Assembly (NCBI GenBank): GCA_026400555.1
Contig: JAPLOW010000065.1
Span: 1-57,679, forward strand
Source of the DNA: Hyphomicrobiales bacterium
Lineage (GTDB): Bacteria; Pseudomonadota; Alphaproteobacteria; Rhizobiales; Beijerinckiaceae
Reading direction: 5' to 3'
DNA: 57,679 nt
Part shown: positions 34,006 to 49,456 of the stretch, one piece after another
Position numbering within the stretch: position 1 is the first letter of the stretch
Layout of the letters: each line of letters starts with the position of its first letter
Program-made: the position numbers and the translations under genes
The notes under the pieces: generated by a model
Databases searched by the model: none
What the model saw: only the letters and a program-made list of their open reading frames with translations
What the model was told of the DNA's origin: nothing

Positions 34006-34881
34006 TCAGCTCTTGAGCCGGCGGCACACGCCCTCGAGTTGCTCAAGCGTCCTGTAGCGGATCGTGAGTTGCCCGCCGCCATGGCCCTTGTGCGCGATGT
34101 CCACCTTGAGGCCAAGTACATCCTCCAGCGCCTGCTCGAGCGCTCGCGTGTCGGGATCCTTCGCGGCTTTCGCCCTGGACGCGGTGTCTGCCCTGCCGGC
34201 AGGCTCCTGCGCGAGGCGCTCGACATCCCGCACTGTGAGGCCTTCTGCAACGACCTTGCGTGCCACAGCCTCAGGATCGGATACCGCCAGCAGAGCGCGC
34301 GCATGGCCGGCGGATAACTGACCCTCAGCGACCTGCTTGCGGACGCTGTCCGGAAGCTTCATCAGCCGCAATGTATTGGCGACGTGGCTGCGGCTTTTGC
34401 CGATCACCTTTGACAGGTCGAGTTGGGTGTAGCCGAACTCGCTCATCAGTTGTTCGTAGCCCTGCGCCTCGTCGAGCGCATTCAGGTCTGAACGCTGGAC
34501 GTTCTCGACAATCGCGATCTCAAGCGCATCTTTGTCGCTGGCTTCGACGAGAACGATCGGAGCCTCGTGCAGGCCCGCGCGCTGCGCGGCGCGCCAGCGA
34601 CGTTCCCCGGCAATGATCTCGAACACATCCACCAGACCCGGGACGGAACGAACCAGGATCGGTTGAATGATGCCCCGCTCCCGAATCGATTGGGCAAGAT
34701 CATCGAGTTCGCTGTCATCGAAGCTCTTGCGCGGATTGCGGGGATTTGGCCTGAGGAACTCGATCGGTGCGAGCCGTTGGCCCCGCGCGCGCTCGACCGC
34801 GCCCATCTCATCGCCCACATCCCCGATCAGGGCCGCCAGGCCGCGCCCCAGACGTGAACGTCCCGGTTCATCCGCCATCAT
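34006..34881 (-). CDS. parB: Chromosome-partitioning protein ParB
   Basis: 291 residues from the ATG at 34881, which has GGGAGAA just upstream; an in-frame ATG 15 bases earlier is less well placed. The N-terminus R-L-G-R-G-L-A-A-L-I-G (ParA-stimulating region) is followed by the CTP-binding region with N-P-R-N-P-R and G-E-R-R-W-R (92-97), then the helix-turn-helix that reads parS and a C-terminal dimerisation domain. ParB clamps load at parS and spread; two matching parS palindromes lie 1.5-3.5 kb away. It follows parA on the same strand after 51 bases. Confidence 0.97.
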   Translation of the reverse strand: MMADEPGRSRLGRGLAALIGDVGDEMGAVERARGQRLAPIEFLRPNPRNPRKSFDDSELDDLAQSIRERGIIQPILVRSVPGLVDVFEIIAGERRWRAAQRAGLHEAPIVLVEASDKDALEIAIVENVQRSDLNALDEAQGYEQLMSEFGYTQLDLSKVIGKSRSHVANTLRLMKLPDSVRKQVAEGQLSAGHARALLAVSDPEAVARKVVAEGLTVRDVERLAQEPAGRADTASRAKAAKDPDTRALEQALEDVLGLKVDIAHKGHGGGQLTIRYRTLEQLEGVCRRLKS

Positions 34882-34932
34882 GCTTCTCCCGCTCACGCTT
34901 CAACGCCATTGTCACATCCGCCACAGTCATCG

Positions 34933-35769
34933 TCAGTTCGCCCTCAGGCGATGCTCCCGCTGGATGACCTCCGAGGCGAGCTTCAGATAAGCCTGCGACC
35001 CCGCGCATTTCAGATCATAGAGCAAGGCTGGCTTTCCATATGAGGGCGCCTCGGAAACCCGGACATTACGCGGAATCACCGTGTCATAGACCTTGTCGCC
35101 CATGAACTGGCGGACATCGGCCATCACCTGTCCGGACAGGTTGTTGCGCGGGTCGTACATGGTCAGGACCACGCCCTGGATCGTCAGCCTCGGATTCAGC
35201 GTCGTCCGCACCTGTTCGACCGTAGCGATCAACTGGCTGAGACCTTCAAGCGCAAAGAATTCGCACTGTAACGGCACGAGGACTGCATCAGAGGCGGTCA
35301 GGGCGTTGATCGTCAGCAGGTTCAGTGAAGGAGGGCAGTCGATCAGCACGTATCCGAATCGATCTTCCCCGGTCGGCAACTGCGCGATGGCATTGCGAAG
35401 CCGTGTGACCCGATCCCGTTGCGAGGCGATCTCCAGTTCGACGCCGAGCAGGTCCAGCGTGGACGGCGCAATAAACAGGTTCGGCACGGCGGTCTCATGC
35501 ACGACCTCTGGCAGCGACCGCTCCGCGCTCATGACATCATAGGTGGATGATCGCCGGCTTTTGCGGTCAAGTCCGAGACCCGTCGACGCATTGCCCTGCG
35601 GATCGAGATCAATGATCAGGACACGTTCGCCGATAGCCGCAAGTGCCGTCCCGAGATTGATCGCAGTCGTGGTCTTGCCAACGCCACCCTTCTGGTTCGC
35701 CAGCGCCAGGACACGGCTTGAGCCACTACGGGACGGAACAGTCAGAAGAATTTCTCGCTCAAGTGACAT
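34933..35769 (-). CDS. parA: Chromosome-partitioning ATPase ParA
   Basis: 278 residues from the ATG at 35769 (M-S-L-E-R-E-I); the open frame extends 39 bases further into the rsmG stop region but without support. The deviant Walker A K-G-G-V-G-K-T-T-T is at 27-35, and D-L-D-P-Q-G-N-A-S-T-G and V-L-I-D-C-P-P-S-L follow. It drives movement of ParB-parS complexes over the nucleoid. The parA start lies ten bases after the rsmG stop, so rsmG-parA-parB are very likely one transcript. Confidence 0.97.
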   Translation of the reverse strand: MSLEREILLTVPSRSGSSRVLALANQKGGVGKTTTAINLGTALAAIGERVLIIDLDPQGNASTGLGLDRKSRRSSTYDVMSAERSLPEVVHETAVPNLFIAPSTLDLLGVELEIASQRDRVTRLRNAIAQLPTGEDRFGYVLIDCPPSLNLLTINALTASDAVLVPLQCEFFALEGLSQLIATVEQVRTTLNPRLTIQGVVLTMYDPRNNLSGQVMADVRQFMGDKVYDTVIPRNVRVSEAPSYGKPALLYDLKCAGSQAYLKLASEVIQREHRLRAN

Positions 35770-35779
35770 CGGTCGACAC

Positions 35780-36424
35780 CTATGGCTGGCCCATCCTGAC
35801 CAGAACAATCCGCGCGTCCCGATCCGTCAGGCTTTGTCGCACATCAGCGGAGAACACCCAAGATGTTGCGGCTTCATGCAACTCATTCTCTACATCTTGT
35901 CCCTTTGGAAAGATACCCAGAGCGCCCTTTCTCAACAACTCGTTCGTCCACCCCAACAACTCGATCAACGGAGCGAGCGCACGCGCGCTGACAATGGAGA
36001 AGACCACCTCGAATGTCGGGACGATCTGCTCAATCCGACCCTCGTGCACGATGGCGTCCAGTTCCAGCAAACGACACATATGCCGGAGAAACGCGCATTT
36101 TCGGCCATTGCTCTCGACAAGATGGGTTGTGCCTTCGCGCCGTTCAGTCCGCACAATCGCGACAACCAACCCAGGAAAGCCACCCCCGGATCCGAGGTCG
36201 AGCCACGCGCCCGGCTGCTGCGCATGATCAAGCAGCTGAAGTGAATCGGCCACATGACGGATCCAGACCTGATTCAGTGTGGATGGACCCACAAGATTCT
36301 TGATGGCCTGCCACCGCCCCAACTCACGCGTCAGGACATCAAGCTTCGCCAGTGTTTCACGTGAAACATGGAGGGACGCGGCAACAACCTCGCGTCCGCG
36401 GGCATCAGGCGACGAGGTGGTCAT
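35780..36424 (-). CDS. rsmG: 16S rRNA (guanine-527-N7) methyltransferase
   Basis: 214 residues from the ATG at 36424, inside the 3' end of mnmG. The SAM-binding motif [12 protein letters not shown] is near 75-86, preceded by [11 protein letters not shown] and the N-terminal N-L-V-G-P-S-T. RsmG (GidB) methylates G527 in 16S rRNA; loss gives mild streptomycin resistance. One perfect parS palindrome (36353-36368) lies inside its coding sequence and encodes the stretch around H-V-S-R-E-T. It overlaps mnmG by about 20 bases. Confidence 0.96.
36353..36368. promoter_or_regulatory. parS: parS centromere site 1 (inside rsmG)
   Basis: TGTTTCACGTGAAACA, a perfect 16-bp palindrome identical to the universal bacterial parS consensus. 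It lies within the first codons of rsmG, 6.5 kb from the proposed origin and 1.5 kb from parB. This is the site ParB would bind as a CTP-dependent clamp. Confidence 0.96.
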
Positions 36425-38349: not shown

Positions 38350-38365
38350 TGTTTCACGTGAAACA
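38350..38365. promoter_or_regulatory. parS: parS centromere site 2 (between mnmG and mnmE)
   Basis: A second perfect copy of the 16-bp parS palindrome, in the 93-base gap between the mnmE stop and the mnmG start. It lies 2.0 kb from the first and about 4.4 kb from the proposed origin. The gap holds nothing else recognisable apart from the mnmG ribosome-binding region. Confidence 0.96.
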
Positions 38366-41655: not shown

Positions 41656-42690
41656 TCACACGGCTCTTCCGCGCACGAGCGTCATCATACGTTCCACATG
41701 GGCGATCGGCGTCTGAGGCACAATCCCGTGACCAAGGTTGAGAATATGCCTCCGGCTGCGGGCCACAGCCAGCATCGCCTTCACGCCGTTGTCGAGCGCC
41801 TCACCGCCAGCCACCAGCGCCAGCGGATCAAGATTCCCCTGGGAGACAATCGTATCCGGCAATTGCCTGACCGTCTGCGCAAGGTCCGCTCCCCAATCGA
41901 TCCCGAACCCATCCGCACCGGTGATCGTCGCATACTGACCCAACACCCCCGCTGCCCCGCGCGCAAAGACAATGACCTTCGAAGCAGGATAGGACGCCTT
42001 CACCCCGGTAATGATGCGGCGGATGGGTTCGATGGACCAACGTTCCAGCCCACCCGGTGTCAACGCACTCGCAAAACTTTCAAAAATCTGGACAACCTCA
42101 GCACCGGCAGCCAACTGGGCCTTCAGATAGACAATCGAGGCATCGACAAGCTGATCGATCATCGCGGACAGGAAGTCCGGATCGCGATAGGCGACGAGGC
42201 GGGCCGGAGCCTGATCAGCCGTGCCCTTGCCAGCAATCATGTAGCTGGCCACCGTCCATGGCGCGCCGCAGAACCCGATCAGCGTGGTCTCGGCCGGCAA
42301 CTCACGCCGCAGCCGCTCGACAGTGCGGATCACCGGCGAAAGGCGGTCGAGATCAAACCGCAGCGGCCTCTGGCGCAAAGCTTCCGCTGTCTCGATCTGC
42401 TCCAGTCGCGGGCCTTCACCCTCCTCAAACCAGACCTTCTGGCCCATTGCATGCGGGACCACCAGGATATCCGAGAACAGAATCGACGCATCGAAGCCAA
42501 ACCGGCGGATCGGCTGCAATGTGACTTCCGTGGCAAGTTCGGTGTTGAAGCATAAATCGAGGAACGATCCGGCCTTTCCCCTGGTCTCGCGGTACTCCGG
42601 CAGGTAGCGCCCGGCCTGTCGCATCAGCCAGATGGGTGGCGTTGCAAGTGTCTCCCCTGCGAAGAGGCGCATCAGTGTCGTTGTCATCAT
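41656..42690 (-). CDS. hemE: Uroporphyrinogen decarboxylase
   Basis: 344 residues. The active-site opening P-P-I-W-L-M-R-Q-A-G-R-Y-L-P-E-Y at about 17-32, F-S-D-I-L-V-V-P-H-A-M-G, G-F-C-G-A-P-W-T-V-A-S-Y-M and the C-terminal Q-G-N-L-D-P block are all present. It removes four carboxyl groups from uroporphyrinogen III. As in Caulobacter, hemE is transcribed away from the origin, and its promoter lies inside the origin region: an A/T-rich CTATTATAG lies about 15-25 bases before the start on the minus strand. Confidence 0.98.
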   Translation of the reverse strand: MMTTTLMRLFAGETLATPPIWLMRQAGRYLPEYRETRGKAGSFLDLCFNTELATEVTLQPIRRFGFDASILFSDILVVPHAMGQKVWFEEGEGPRLEQIETAEALRQRPLRFDLDRLSPVIRTVERLRRELPAETTLIGFCGAPWTVASYMIAGKGTADQAPARLVAYRDPDFLSAMIDQLVDASIVYLKAQLAAGAEVVQIFESFASALTPGGLERWSIEPIRRIITGVKASYPASKVIVFARGAAGVLGQYATITGADGFGIDWGADLAQTVRQLPDTIVSQGNLDPLALVAGGEALDNGVKAMLAVARSRRHILNLGHGIVPQTPIAHVERMMTLVRGRAV

Positions 42691-43075
42691 TGTCCCCCGA
42701 TAACCCTCTATAATAGATAGAATTGAATCTGGTCTCCTGTTTTTTCTGTTTGGGTCCTCGCAAGCACCGGCACGAAATCATCCACGCGCCATCCACAGGA
42801 ACCGGTCGGGGATCCAAGCGGACCTTGTCACATCCACAGTGCGTCTTTTTCTCTTAAACATTTGTTAACCATATCGAATTTTGCTTACCTCTGCAAAGTT
42901 GCATCGCCACCCGATCAAAGCCGCCGTCTCCACATCGATTCCTCCACAGCCGCTCAGGCAAGGCGGCAGCAGCCGGTTTGCGATCGACCTGGCCCATGCG
43001 TCCCGGCCGTGCGTCCACTTGTCCCCACCCGTCCCCAGCGTTATGCCCAGACCCAGCCATCCCGCGGGACACCAC
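42691..43075. other. oriC: Chromosomal replication origin (oriC) between hemE and PPSR
   Basis: 385 bases without a gene between divergent hemE and PPSR, the place conserved for alphaproteobacterial origins since Caulobacter and Rickettsia. DnaA-box-like nonamers, all in the same orientation, lie at 42778 (TCATCCACG), 42789 (CCATCCACA), 42830 (ACATCCACA), 42926 (GTCTCCACA), 42940 (TCCTCCACA) and 43011 (GCGTCCACT). Weak TCCCCA-type boxes lie at 43019 and 43029. A short A/T-rich block at about 42845-42895 is the best unwinding candidate and holds a perfect CtrA site. Two GANTC methylation sites lie at 42725 and 42937. parABS is 4-8 kb to the left, and flanking genes run outward. GC-skew inversion was not computed. 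Confidence 0.85.
42854..42869. promoter_or_regulatory. CtrA-type binding site inside oriC
   Basis: TTAA-ACATTTG-TTAAC, a perfect match to TTAA-N7-TTAAC, in the A/T-rich part of the origin about 15 bases after a DnaA-box-like nonamer (42830-42838). In Caulobacter, CtrA bound at such sites in the origin blocks initiation. The exact arrangement here is read from sequence; the effect is inferred. Confidence 0.8.
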
Positions 43076-43903
43076 ATGCGCAGCTATTTCCACCTGCACC
43101 TTGTATCGGATGCGACGGGCGAGACCCTCATCGCCATCAGCCGCGCGGCTGCCGCACAATATGAGGGCGTGTCCGCGATCGAACATGTCTATCCCCTGGT
43201 TCGGTCGCGAACGCAGCTGGACCGGGTCCTGAACGAAATCGAGACCGCTCCGGGCATCGTGCTCTACACCCTCGTTGATCAGGACCTCGCATCGACTCTG
43301 GAAAGCTTCTGCACGCGGATCGGCTCACCGACCATGTCGATTCTCAATCCAATCCTGTCGCTTTTCCAATCCTATCTGGGCGCCGCCTCATCGGCCCGCC
43401 CCGGCGCGCAGCACATGCTGAACGCGGAGTATTTCAAGCGCATCGACGCCATGAATTACACCATGCTGCACGATGACGGCCAACTGACCGATGACCTCGA
43501 AAGCGCCGACATCGTGCTGCTCGGCGTAAGCCGGACCTCAAAGACACCGACCAGCATCTATCTGGCCAACCGGGGCGTCAAAACCGCCAACATTCCGCTT
43601 GTTCCAGGTGTGCCCCCCCCGCCCCAGCTCGAAACCCTGCGCAAGCCGCTGATCGTCGGTCTGGTGGCCGCGCCCGAGCGCATCGTGCAGATCCGGCAGA
43701 ACCGGCTGCTCTCGCTCAAGGCTGATGACGACACCGCCTATGTCGATCACGACGCAGTCGCGGCCGAGATCGCTACATCCCGGAAACTGTTCGCGCGCCG
43801 GGGTTGGCCCGTCATCGATGTGACCCGCCGTTCCATCGAGGAAACCGCCGCGGCGATCCTTGAGCATCTGCGCGATCATCGCCTCAAATTCATTGCGATG
43901 TGA
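43076..43903 (+). CDS. Pyruvate, water dikinase regulatory protein / PPSR (DUF299)
   Basis: 275 residues from the ATG at 43076 ([17 protein letters not shown]), the usual family start; an ATG at 43043 would lie in the origin. The P-loop-like [11 protein letters not shown] near 150-160 and N-I-P-L-V-P-G-V are diagnostic. These bifunctional kinase/pyrophosphorylases switch PEP synthase or pyruvate-phosphate dikinase by threonine phosphorylation; the target is not in the window. The gene corresponds to the RP001-like neighbour of the origin. A run of eight C (43613-43620) encodes the P-P-P-P stretch. Confidence 0.94.
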
Positions 43904-46035: not shown

Positions 46036-46787
46036 ATCGGGAAGTGGTTCTGGACACCGAAACCACCGGGGTCGATGCCCGCAATGGCGACCGGATCATC
46101 GAGATCGGTTGCGTGGAACTGATCAACCATTGCCCCACAGGGCGAAGCTTCCATGCCTATCTCAATCCGGGCCGCCCGGTTTCCGAAGGCGCCTTCGCCG
46201 TCCACGGCTTGTCTGACGCCTTTCTGGCGGACAAGCCACGGTTTGCAGATGTTGCCGATACCTTTGCCGACTTCATCGCCGGCGCCCGGCTGGTGATCCA
46301 TAATGCGCCCTTCGATGTCGGTTTTCTCGACATGGAGTTGGCGCTCGTCGGCAAGCCAAGGCTCGAATCCCAGAATGTAGTCGACACGCTCGTCATGGCC
46401 AGGCGCAAGCATCCAGGGGCTTCCAACAGCCTCGACGCTCTGTGCGCCCGCTACGGCATCGACACCACCCGCCGCGTGAAGCACGGAGCCTTGCTCGACG
46501 CCGAGATACTGTCGGATGTCTACATTGAGCTTCTCGGCGGGCGACAAACCAATCTGGGTCTCGCCGCTCCGGCGTCTGTCGAGTCAAGGGCCGGGGCACC
46601 GACAACCCGCACCCATGCAATGCGCGCAATTCAACGAACCAGTGTCCGCGCGCCCCGGATCACGCCGGAAGAGCACGAGGCGCATGCAGCCTTCGTGGCC
46701 GCGCTCGCCCGGAGCGCAGGGTCAGCGCCCGGCGCCGGCGCGCTCTGGACAGCCTATCTGACCAGGCAGGAGACCGCCGTCCGGTGA
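46032..46787 (+). CDS. dnaQ: DNA polymerase III epsilon subunit (proofreading exonuclease)
   Basis: 251 residues. ExoI D-T-E-T-T-G-V at about 8-14, ExoII-like H-N-A-P-F-D-V-G-F-L-D, and ExoIII with H-G-A-L-L-D-A-E near 150 form a DEDDh exonuclease. A long C-terminal tail (about 175-251) would reach the polymerase alpha subunit. With holA in the same region, two replisome genes flank the origin. It starts inside the coaE stop and converges with secB 13 bases away. Confidence 0.96.
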   Translation: MNREVVLDTETTGVDARNGDRIIEIGCVELINHCPTGRSFHAYLNPGRPVSEGAFAVHGLSDAFLADKPRFADVADTFADFIAGARLVIHNAPFDVGFLDMELALVGKPRLESQNVVDTLVMARRKHPGASNSLDALCARYGIDTTRRVKHGALLDAEILSDVYIELLGGRQTNLGLAAPASVESRAGAPTTRTHAMRAIQRTSVRAPRITPEEHEAHAAFVAALARSAGSAPGAGALWTAYLTRQETAVR

Positions 46788-48296: not shown

Positions 48297-49456
48297 TCAG
48301 ACGCTGGCTGCTGGCGGTTGTCATGAGCGTGACCACCGGCATATCCCATTCTGTCGAACAGGTTCCGTCGACCGTGGCGGGAGCCAGGCTTGAACGCGGT
48401 TCATTCGATTCGCTGGCCGGCTGGCATGAGGATGACCATGCCGCCGCCCTGACCGCCTTTGTCATGGGCTGCAAAAGAGCGGATGTCTTGCGGCAGGGAC
48501 TTGAGCCGCCCGCCGCTCTGGCGCGGGCCTGCTCCGCCGCACTCGCCATGATCGGATCTGGCAAGCAGATGGCGCGGCTCTTCTTCGAGAGCCGGTTCGT
48601 GCCTCTCGCCATCCTTCCCGATGGACCGCCTGGCTTCCTGACCGGTTATTTCGAGCCGGAGTTCCGTGGCTCCACCGTTCGCACAGATGCGTTCCCGGTG
48701 CCGCTGTTCGGACGGCCGGATGATCTGGTCACGCTCGGGCAGGGCGAATCGGCGGCGGGAGTGCCGCAGGGTCTGCAGGCGGCGCGCCGGTCTGCCGATG
48801 GGACACTGGGTCCTTATCCGACCCGACGCGAGATCGAGGAGGGCGCCGTTCCAGGCCTTCCGGTCGTGGCCTGGCTTGCCAATGAGGTCGACCGCTTCGT
48901 GATGCAGGTCCAGGGCTCGGCGCGGCTGCGGCTTTCGGATGGTTCGTTGCTGCGCGTGGCTTATGCCGGCCGCAACGGTCATCCCTATACCTCGCTCGGA
49001 CGTCTGCTGTCGCAAACGGAGGCCATTCCCCCGGCCGAGATGACCATGGACCGTCTCGTGGCGCGCCTGAAGGGCGATCCCGGCTGGGCAAGACGTTTCA
49101 TGTGGAACAACGCCTCGTTCGTGTTTTTTCGCGTTGCGCCGGAACTGGCGCCGAACAGCGGACCGATCGGCGGTGCGGGCGTGCCGCTCACCGCGCATCG
49201 CAGCGTGGCTGCAGATCGCGCTATCTGGCCCTATGGTCTGCCGATCTGGCTTTATGGGACCACCCCCACCGCGACCCGGAATCTGACCGAGCCGTTGCGG
49301 CGGCTGGCTGTCATTCAGGATACCGGCTCCGCCATCGTCGGCCCAGCCCGGTTCGATCTGTATTTTGGGTCCGGCGCCGAGGCCGGGTTCGTGGCCGGTC
49401 TCACCCGTCACGGCGTTCACGCCACCATCCTGTGGCCGCGCGCGGATCTGCCGTGA
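48293..49456 (+). CDS. mltA: Membrane-bound lytic murein transglycosylase A
   Basis: 387 residues from a TTG at 48293 that overlaps the preceding stop (TTGA); an ATG at 48323 would cut the signal peptide short. A signal peptide but no lipobox cysteine is seen. The MltA barrel starts near 105 (L-T-G-Y-F-E-P-E-F-R-G-S), V-Q-G-S-A-R-L-R-L is central, and the 3D domain near the end has D-T-G-S-A-I-x-G-P-A-R-x-D-L-Y-F-G-S-G with the catalytic aspartates. The enzyme cleaves glycan strands with anhydro product. The stop shares bases with the smr start (TGATG). Confidence 0.94.
   Translation: MIRRWLLAVVMSVTTGISHSVEQVPSTVAGARLERGSFDSLAGWHEDDHAAALTAFVMGCKRADVLRQGLEPPAALARACSAALAMIGSGKQMARLFFESRFVPLAILPDGPPGFLTGYFEPEFRGSTVRTDAFPVPLFGRPDDLVTLGQGESAAGVPQGLQAARRSADGTLGPYPTRREIEEGAVPGLPVVAWLANEVDRFVMQVQGSARLRLSDGSLLRVAYAGRNGHPYTSLGRLLSQTEAIPPAEMTMDRLVARLKGDPGWARRFMWNNASFVFFRVAPELAPNSGPIGGAGVPLTAHRSVAADRAIWPYGLPIWLYGTTPTATRNLTEPLRRLAVIQDTGSAIVGPARFDLYFGSGAEAGFVAGLTRHGVHATILWPRADLP

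Follow-up and report, generated by a model that had tools for sequence, protein, structure and literature searches.

The stretch of DNA analysed here (the window; 57,679 nucleotides of contig JAPLOW010000065.1, from a Hyphomicrobiales bacterium of the Beijerinckiaceae) carries, between the divergent genes hemE and PPSR, a gene-free gap that is very probably the DnaA-dependent origin of the chromosome. The evidence comprises the position of the gap, a cluster of DnaA-box-like nonamers, a perfect CtrA site, two parS sites nearby, conservation in the relatives that we fetched and, in one relative, the place of the replication terminus. The box cluster, the CtrA site and parS all exceed chance. 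As an origin it is ordinary for its class, lying at the known alphaproteobacterial place in a Bosea-like lineage, and its interest, which is moderate, lies in lineage-specific control sites. A first-pass annotation, made from the sequence of the window, had proposed that the window spans the replication start; judged by the box cluster, the CtrA site, parS and the terminus of the relative G055, that proposal is supported and very probably right.

The gap between hemE and PPSR

At 385 bp and a GC content of 0.564, the gap has coordinates that agree with the gene-free segment described in the first-pass annotation. Pfam calls put hemE on the minus strand and PPSR, which we equate with COG1806 in published work, on the plus strand, so that both genes face outward as annotated. 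An in-frame ATG at 43043 is an alternative PPSR start that would reduce the length of the gap. Against Bosea-group homologues, most BLAST alignments open at residue 2 of the protein predicted from 43076, which favours, without proving, that start over 43043. The genes and the features of the gap are as follows.

41656..42690, minus strand: hemE, uroporphyrinogen decarboxylase (Pfam PF01208, URO-D)
42691..43075: intergenic candidate chromosomal origin (oriC), 385 bp
42706..42748: AT-rich stretch near hemE, candidate unwinding element; AT 0.70 per 40-mer (starts 42706-42709); aligned with a conserved T-rich block of Bosea-group origins
42725..42729: GANTC (CcrM-type) site, from a motif scan
42778..42786, plus strand: DnaA-box-like TCATCCACG; conserved columns in an alignment of 36 gaps
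42789..42797, plus strand: DnaA-box-like CCATCCACA; conserved columns in the same alignment
42830..42838, plus strand: DnaA-box-like ACATCCACA, from the two-mismatch scan
42843..42887: AT-richest block, around the CtrA site, alternative candidate unwinding element; 40-mers 0.72-0.75
42854..42868: perfect CtrA site TTAA-N7-TTAA, TTAAACATTTGTTAA, from a motif scan
42865..42873, plus strand: weak DnaA-box-like TTAACCATA; overlaps the CtrA site and is doubtful
42926..42934, plus strand: DnaA-box-like GTCTCCACA, from the two-mismatch scan
42937..42941: GANTC (CcrM-type) site, from a motif scan
42940..42948, plus strand: DnaA-box-like TCCTCCACA; its CACA part in conserved columns (35 of 36)
43019..43027, plus strand: DnaA-box-like TTGTCCCCA; aligns with TTGTCCACA of many Bosea-group origins, TT.TCC.CA being present in 36 of 36
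43041..43049, plus strand: DnaA-box-like TTATGCCCA, from the two-mismatch scan
43076..43903, plus strand: PPSR-type kinase/pyrophosphorylase (Pfam PF03618, Kinase-PPPase)

Where at least six DnaA-box-like nonamers had been annotated, we found eight that differ from TTATCCACA at two positions; the plus strand carries all of them, and one is the doubtful box at 42865. Dinucleotide shuffles of the gap gave a mean of 0.91 such boxes, and none of 1000 reached eight. Throughout contig C119 (66.7 kb), in which the window sits, the only 385-bp segments with at least six boxes are those overlapping the gap. The maximum was four among 94,985 overlapping background segments (from the relatives G012 and G055 and the dnaA contig of the window's own assembly), these stretches being mostly GC-richer and the relatives' hemE/PPSR gaps having been left out. 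Counted at three mismatches, the boxes show no excess over chance (8 versus 6.84 in shuffles). Four of the boxes (42778, 42789, 42940 and 43019) stand in conserved columns of the alignment, and many Bosea-group origins have boxes nearer the consensus than those of the window, TTGTCCACA being an example. The gap is also partly AT-rich, a fair description in the first-pass annotation, although the rise is moderate and not extreme: its AT content is 0.436 where the window averages 0.353, a level equalled or exceeded by 199 of 11,459 segments of 385 bp. The AT-richest 40-mers start at 42843-42848 and reach 0.75, a value attained by 5 of the window's 57,639 40-mers, all in this block.

The gene arrangement is kept in relatives, in line with the conserved alphaproteobacterial origin position that the first-pass annotation had invoked. 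Among 109 relative loci, picked by PPSR similarity, hemE was found in 108 and was divergent from PPSR in every one of these (the orientation count, the window genome's own three loci included, draws 95 from a script and 16, from opposite-orientation loci, from coordinates). L051 is the lone fetched relative locus that has PPSR without hemE in its 10-kb flank; there, 600 bp upstream of PPSR contain three boxes at two mismatches, and 1,500 bp contain no CtrA site. With the window included, 102 of 109 gaps were distinct, after L001 and L003 (from the window's own genome), L051 (no hemE) and seven loci with identical gaps had been dropped. A PPSR tree of 37 rows chosen from the 102 placed the window with L004-L006 in a separate group (100/98); the 13 Bosea-group rows in the sample stood apart from it (100/99), as did Microvirga (100/100). 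Since the tree sets L004-L006 apart, these same-genus loci were counted with the window; the Bosea group (n=31) comprises L007-L032, which bear the same-genus label, plus L035, L037, whose title is Rhizobiales bacterium 2SD, and L047-L049. By taxonomic label the window's genus includes six genomes whose hemE/PPSR gaps are identical to Bosea-titled loci; the same-genus genomes G006, G011, G018, G023, G024, G027 and G030 were not fetched under their own handles.

Partition sites, dnaA and chromosome polarity

The proximity of the gap to parABS, also claimed in the first pass, was borne out by gene calls for both par genes and by two perfect parS matches.

34006..34896, minus strand: parB, gene call
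34933..35808, minus strand: parA, gene call
36353..36368: canonical parS TGTTTCACGTGAAACA, perfect match
38350..38365: canonical parS TGTTTCACGTGAAACA, perfect match

The two parS sites lie 4.3-6.3 kb left of the gap and are the sole exact matches in the assembly, which comprises 262 contigs with a total of 3.79 Mb, is 85% complete and contains no further site within two mismatches of the Bosea parS variant described below. A third parS-like match, at 49094-49109 in a coding stretch right of the origin, has three mismatches and is probably a chance occurrence (shuffle mean of 0.11 for matches with up to three mismatches). In all eight of the same-genus genomes that consist of 1-7 contigs (G012 included), as well as in G055, the exact matches to TGWTTCACGTGAAACA all fall less than about 9 kb from PPSR. 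Among the window's nearest relatives, canonical parS number two in G031, at 5-8 kb from PPSR, and one in G034, on a contig other than that of PPSR; G026, whose PPSR contig is just 6.6 kb, has none.

The polarity of relatives' chromosomes was read from oriented GGGNAGGG octamers (FtsK orienting polar sequences, KOPS), as KOPS and the gene cluster had been used for Azorhizobium (PMC2443382; papers are cited here by PMC number). In G055, a single-contig genome, the octamers turn at a terminus at 1.544-1.553 Mb. The antipode, at 3.796 Mb, is 24 kb from PPSR (3.772 Mb) and 753 kb from dnaA (3.043 Mb), the two genes being 729 kb apart. An origin placed at PPSR fits 55 of the 61 octamers, one at dnaA fits 51, and the best fit is 56. 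The terminus opposite hemE/PPSR supports an origin there and speaks against dnaA. A milder preference for PPSR appears in G009 (16 versus 14 of 20 octamers, these being the first 20 of at least 94 sites listed on contig C2).

Several observations weigh against an origin in the gap. Every DnaA box there is two mismatches off the consensus, with none nearer, and none of the eight fits the strict TTATNCACA used in PMC1914354. The consensus for integration host factor (IHF) had no match in the gap, either as WATCAN5WTR from PMC1914354 or in a second form, in a scan that covered the gap of the window. As the window's own genome is in 262 contigs, skew over the full chromosome is not computable. On C119 the GC skew speaks for the gap in its values of -0.040 on the left and -0.001 on the right (13 of 2000 permutations of 1-kb bins match the change-point gain), but the best change points are at 44-47 kb, near but outside the gap, and the cumulative minimum lies at 46,666, 3.6 kb right of it; this skew evidence is weak because gene direction also turns at the gap. 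The best-fitting octamer switch in G055 is at 3.525-3.635 Mb, 137-247 kb off PPSR, which fits one site fewer; the hemE/PPSR gap of this genome contains four two-mismatch boxes and lacks a perfect CtrA site, and the GC skew of G055 is noisy over the first 2.9 Mb. In G010, an origin at PPSR and one at dnaA account for the same number of octamers (57 of 62 each; best 59, at 1.54-1.705 Mb), and the antipode of the terminus, at 1.976 Mb, falls in between dnaA (1.872 Mb) and PPSR (2.040 Mb). Skew and octamers are irregular in G012, where an origin-like switch at 1.34-1.39 Mb is far from both PPSR (5.138 Mb) and dnaA (2.667 Mb; 2.47 Mb from PPSR) and GC skew over 80 stretches of 20 kb has no clean minimum; this genome is possibly rearranged or misassembled. 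Across 59 loci of 20 kb, finally, skew was higher right than left of the gap in just 38, and the octamers had no local polarity. The polarity of relatives is thus mixed: one supports the gap by its terminus (G055), one does so mildly (G009), one is even (G010) and one is against or rearranged (G012).

Could replication instead start near dnaA, on contig C260 (20,867 bases), the gap serving only as a divergent promoter whose DnaA and CtrA sites regulate transcription? We consider this very improbable. The equal fit in G010 would suit it, as would a perfect CtrA site found upstream of dnaA as well (C260:6836). However, the first 20,000 bases of C260 have no box at up to one mismatch and no 385-bp segment with more than four at two mismatches, the octamers and terminus antipode of G055 favour PPSR, and parS lies beside hemE/PPSR in nine of nine relatives (the eight same-genus genomes and G055). 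Barely credible, too, is a degenerate, inactive origin in the gap, with replication starting at another site, perhaps within the 15% of the genome that the assembly lacks; weak boxes, the incomplete assembly and the misfit of G012 polarity to hemE/PPSR speak for it, but the boxes remain on conserved columns, parS and parAB stand alongside, and the boxes of Caulobacter are weak too (PMC4468827). We file the gap as a hemE/COG1806 origin despite the missing IHF consensus, because position, boxes, parS and relatives agree.

The CtrA site and its possible role

The perfect CtrA site reported in the first pass was recovered at the coordinates given above. A site of this kind arose in about 0.1% of 5000 shuffles of the gap, and the 3.79-Mb assembly has 17 such sites versus 3 for a reversed control pattern. 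One perfect CtrA-type site is at C260:6836-6850, about 310 bp past the upper end of the dnaA stop-to-stop frame, on its upstream side. CtrA itself is probably represented by a contig-edge fragment in the same assembly, for which CtrA is the best NCBIfam model (241.7 bits over 121 residues; next model 81.7), the fragment falling below the whole-protein cut-off of 350.

Perfect sites were present in 31 of 31 Bosea-group gaps, 11 of 11 from Microvirga, one of four in the window group, that one being the window, and 18 of the 56 remaining gaps, while the reversed pattern occurred in one of the remaining gaps and in none of the three groups. With the spacing changed to N6, matches numbered one among the 31 Bosea-group gaps, six among the 11 of Microvirga, none in the window group and four among the 56 remaining gaps; N8 gave two in the Bosea group, one in Microvirga and one in the remaining gaps. 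TTAA repeats are thus frequent in Microvirga generally, which makes the N7 count there less informative. The Bosea-group site has 16 spacer forms and a constant place in all 31 gaps, which indicates that the TTAA halves are kept while the middle drifts. L004, L005 and L006, the nearest relatives of the window (89% PPSR identity), are without a perfect CtrA site in the origin gap.

If the gap works as we propose, DnaA would build up along the weak boxes, which all lie on one strand, and open one of the two AT-rich blocks, the hemE-proximal one (42706-42748) or the one around the CtrA site (42843-42887); replication would then proceed outward in both directions. By analogy with Caulobacter, CtrA bound at 42854-42868, among the boxes, would most likely block DnaA assembly or unwinding when active. 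ParB on the two parS would then separate the copied origins. In Caulobacter the DnaA boxes are weak and CtrA seems to exclude DnaA; a Cori (the Caulobacter origin) stripped of CtrA binding only mildly perturbs the cell cycle in the laboratory (PMC4468827).

It is possible, though we lean against it, that the gap is the origin and the CtrA site serves only the transcription of hemE, PPSR or an RNA, with no gating of replication. The site is 164 bp before hemE, in promoter range, and is the single perfect one, versus five in Caulobacter Cori (PMC1914354); the three nearest relatives have no perfect copy, and the Sinorhizobium origin is described as having neither the motif nor CtrA binding in the available text of PMC4433202. 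Gating, on the other hand, accords better with a site that is surrounded by conserved DnaA boxes and stays in position in all 31 Bosea-group origins through 16 spacer forms, with the reversed control at 0 of 31, and in Hyphomonas CtrA binds beside the origin (PMC7200025).

A parS-like element in Bosea-group origins and comparison with known origins

Inside the origin gap of all 31 Bosea-group loci, after the CtrA site, stands an invariant parS-like 16-mer, TGATTCACGTGAAACA. It is parS with one altered letter, which creates a GANTC, and beyond two A's the letters flanking it vary. The eight same-genus genomes mentioned above each have two exact matches to TGWTTCACGTGAAACA, namely this 16-mer and a canonical site 6.6-8.9 kb from it. 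The 16-mer is absent from the window, from its three nearest relatives and from the 11 Microvirga gaps; elsewhere among the 102 gaps, L054 alone has a parS-like match, at two mismatches and in a different part of the gap. Literature searches on parS, oriC, GANTC, ParB and CcrM revealed, among the matches listed, no chromosomal origin that contains a GANTC-bearing parS variant. A search on parS within the origin had no match on topic by title and abstract start, and one on Bosea with origin terms had no 'Bosea' among the matches listed. Related arrangements are DnaA boxes at Caulobacter parS (PMC6399470), a Pseudomonas ParB complex that overlaps oriC (PMC10419367) and parS in repABC replicons (PMC9040568). 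This element is the most curious by-product of the analysis and lies outside the window.

A speculative and rather unlikely extension, conceivable from these patterns, is that the Bosea/Microvirga origin is gated directly by CtrA, unlike that of Sinorhizobium, and that the gate is easily lost, since the three nearest relatives of the window are without the perfect site. Bosea proper would have added a centromere of its own, a parS variant with a CcrM GANTC, such that ParB binding could depend on methylation, hence on recent copying, and would join initiation and segregation; the window would represent the state without the element. The parS/GANTC element of Bosea-group origins allows one to probe directly whether initiation is tied to segregation through methylation. 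If the CtrA site is retained in position across Bosea and Microvirga, the acquisition and loss of CtrA control would become open to test in a single order. The window itself provides a well-supported origin for a Bosea-like lineage, in which hemE position, CtrA site and parS proximity come together.

Gene order at the Sinorhizobium meliloti chromosomal origin is the same as in the window. The two share a gene cluster around the origin (PMC2443382) and differ in the perfect CtrA site of the window, the available text on Sinorhizobium giving neither motif nor binding (PMC4433202). Rickettsia and Wolbachia origins are alike in DnaA boxes, CtrA motif and AT content, and that of Rickettsia also lies between hemE and COG1806; both have far lower GC and a reported IHF site, unlike the window, and in Wolbachia the flanks are COG1253 and hemE (PMC1914354). 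With the 31 distinct Bosea-group gaps the window shares the flanking genes, boxes on common columns and the place of the CtrA site, whereas the parS-like 16-mer overlapping GANTC, found in all 31, is missing from it.

Another close counterpart is Caulobacter crescentus, in which Cori is located between hemE and COG1806 (PMC1914354). The window resembles it in place, weak boxes, TTAA-N7-TTAA, an AT-rich block and parS some kilobases off (PMC1914354, PMC4468827, PMC5815017). Unlike Cori, with its five perfect CtrA sites, the window has one, and it is without the IHF consensus; it has two parS at 4.3-6.3 kb, whereas Caulobacter has a cluster of at least five at a distance of about 8 kb. According to the available text of a review, CtrA sites had not been seen in origins beyond Caulobacter species and possibly Rickettsia (PMC4468827). 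CtrA motifs are, however, listed for the origins of Wolbachia, Anaplasma, Ehrlichia and Rickettsia (PMC1914354), so that such motifs outside Caulobacter were already published, on sequence, and in Hyphomonas CtrA binds adjacent to the origin (PMC7200025). The predicted Bosea and Microvirga sites widen the range of origins with CtrA motifs.
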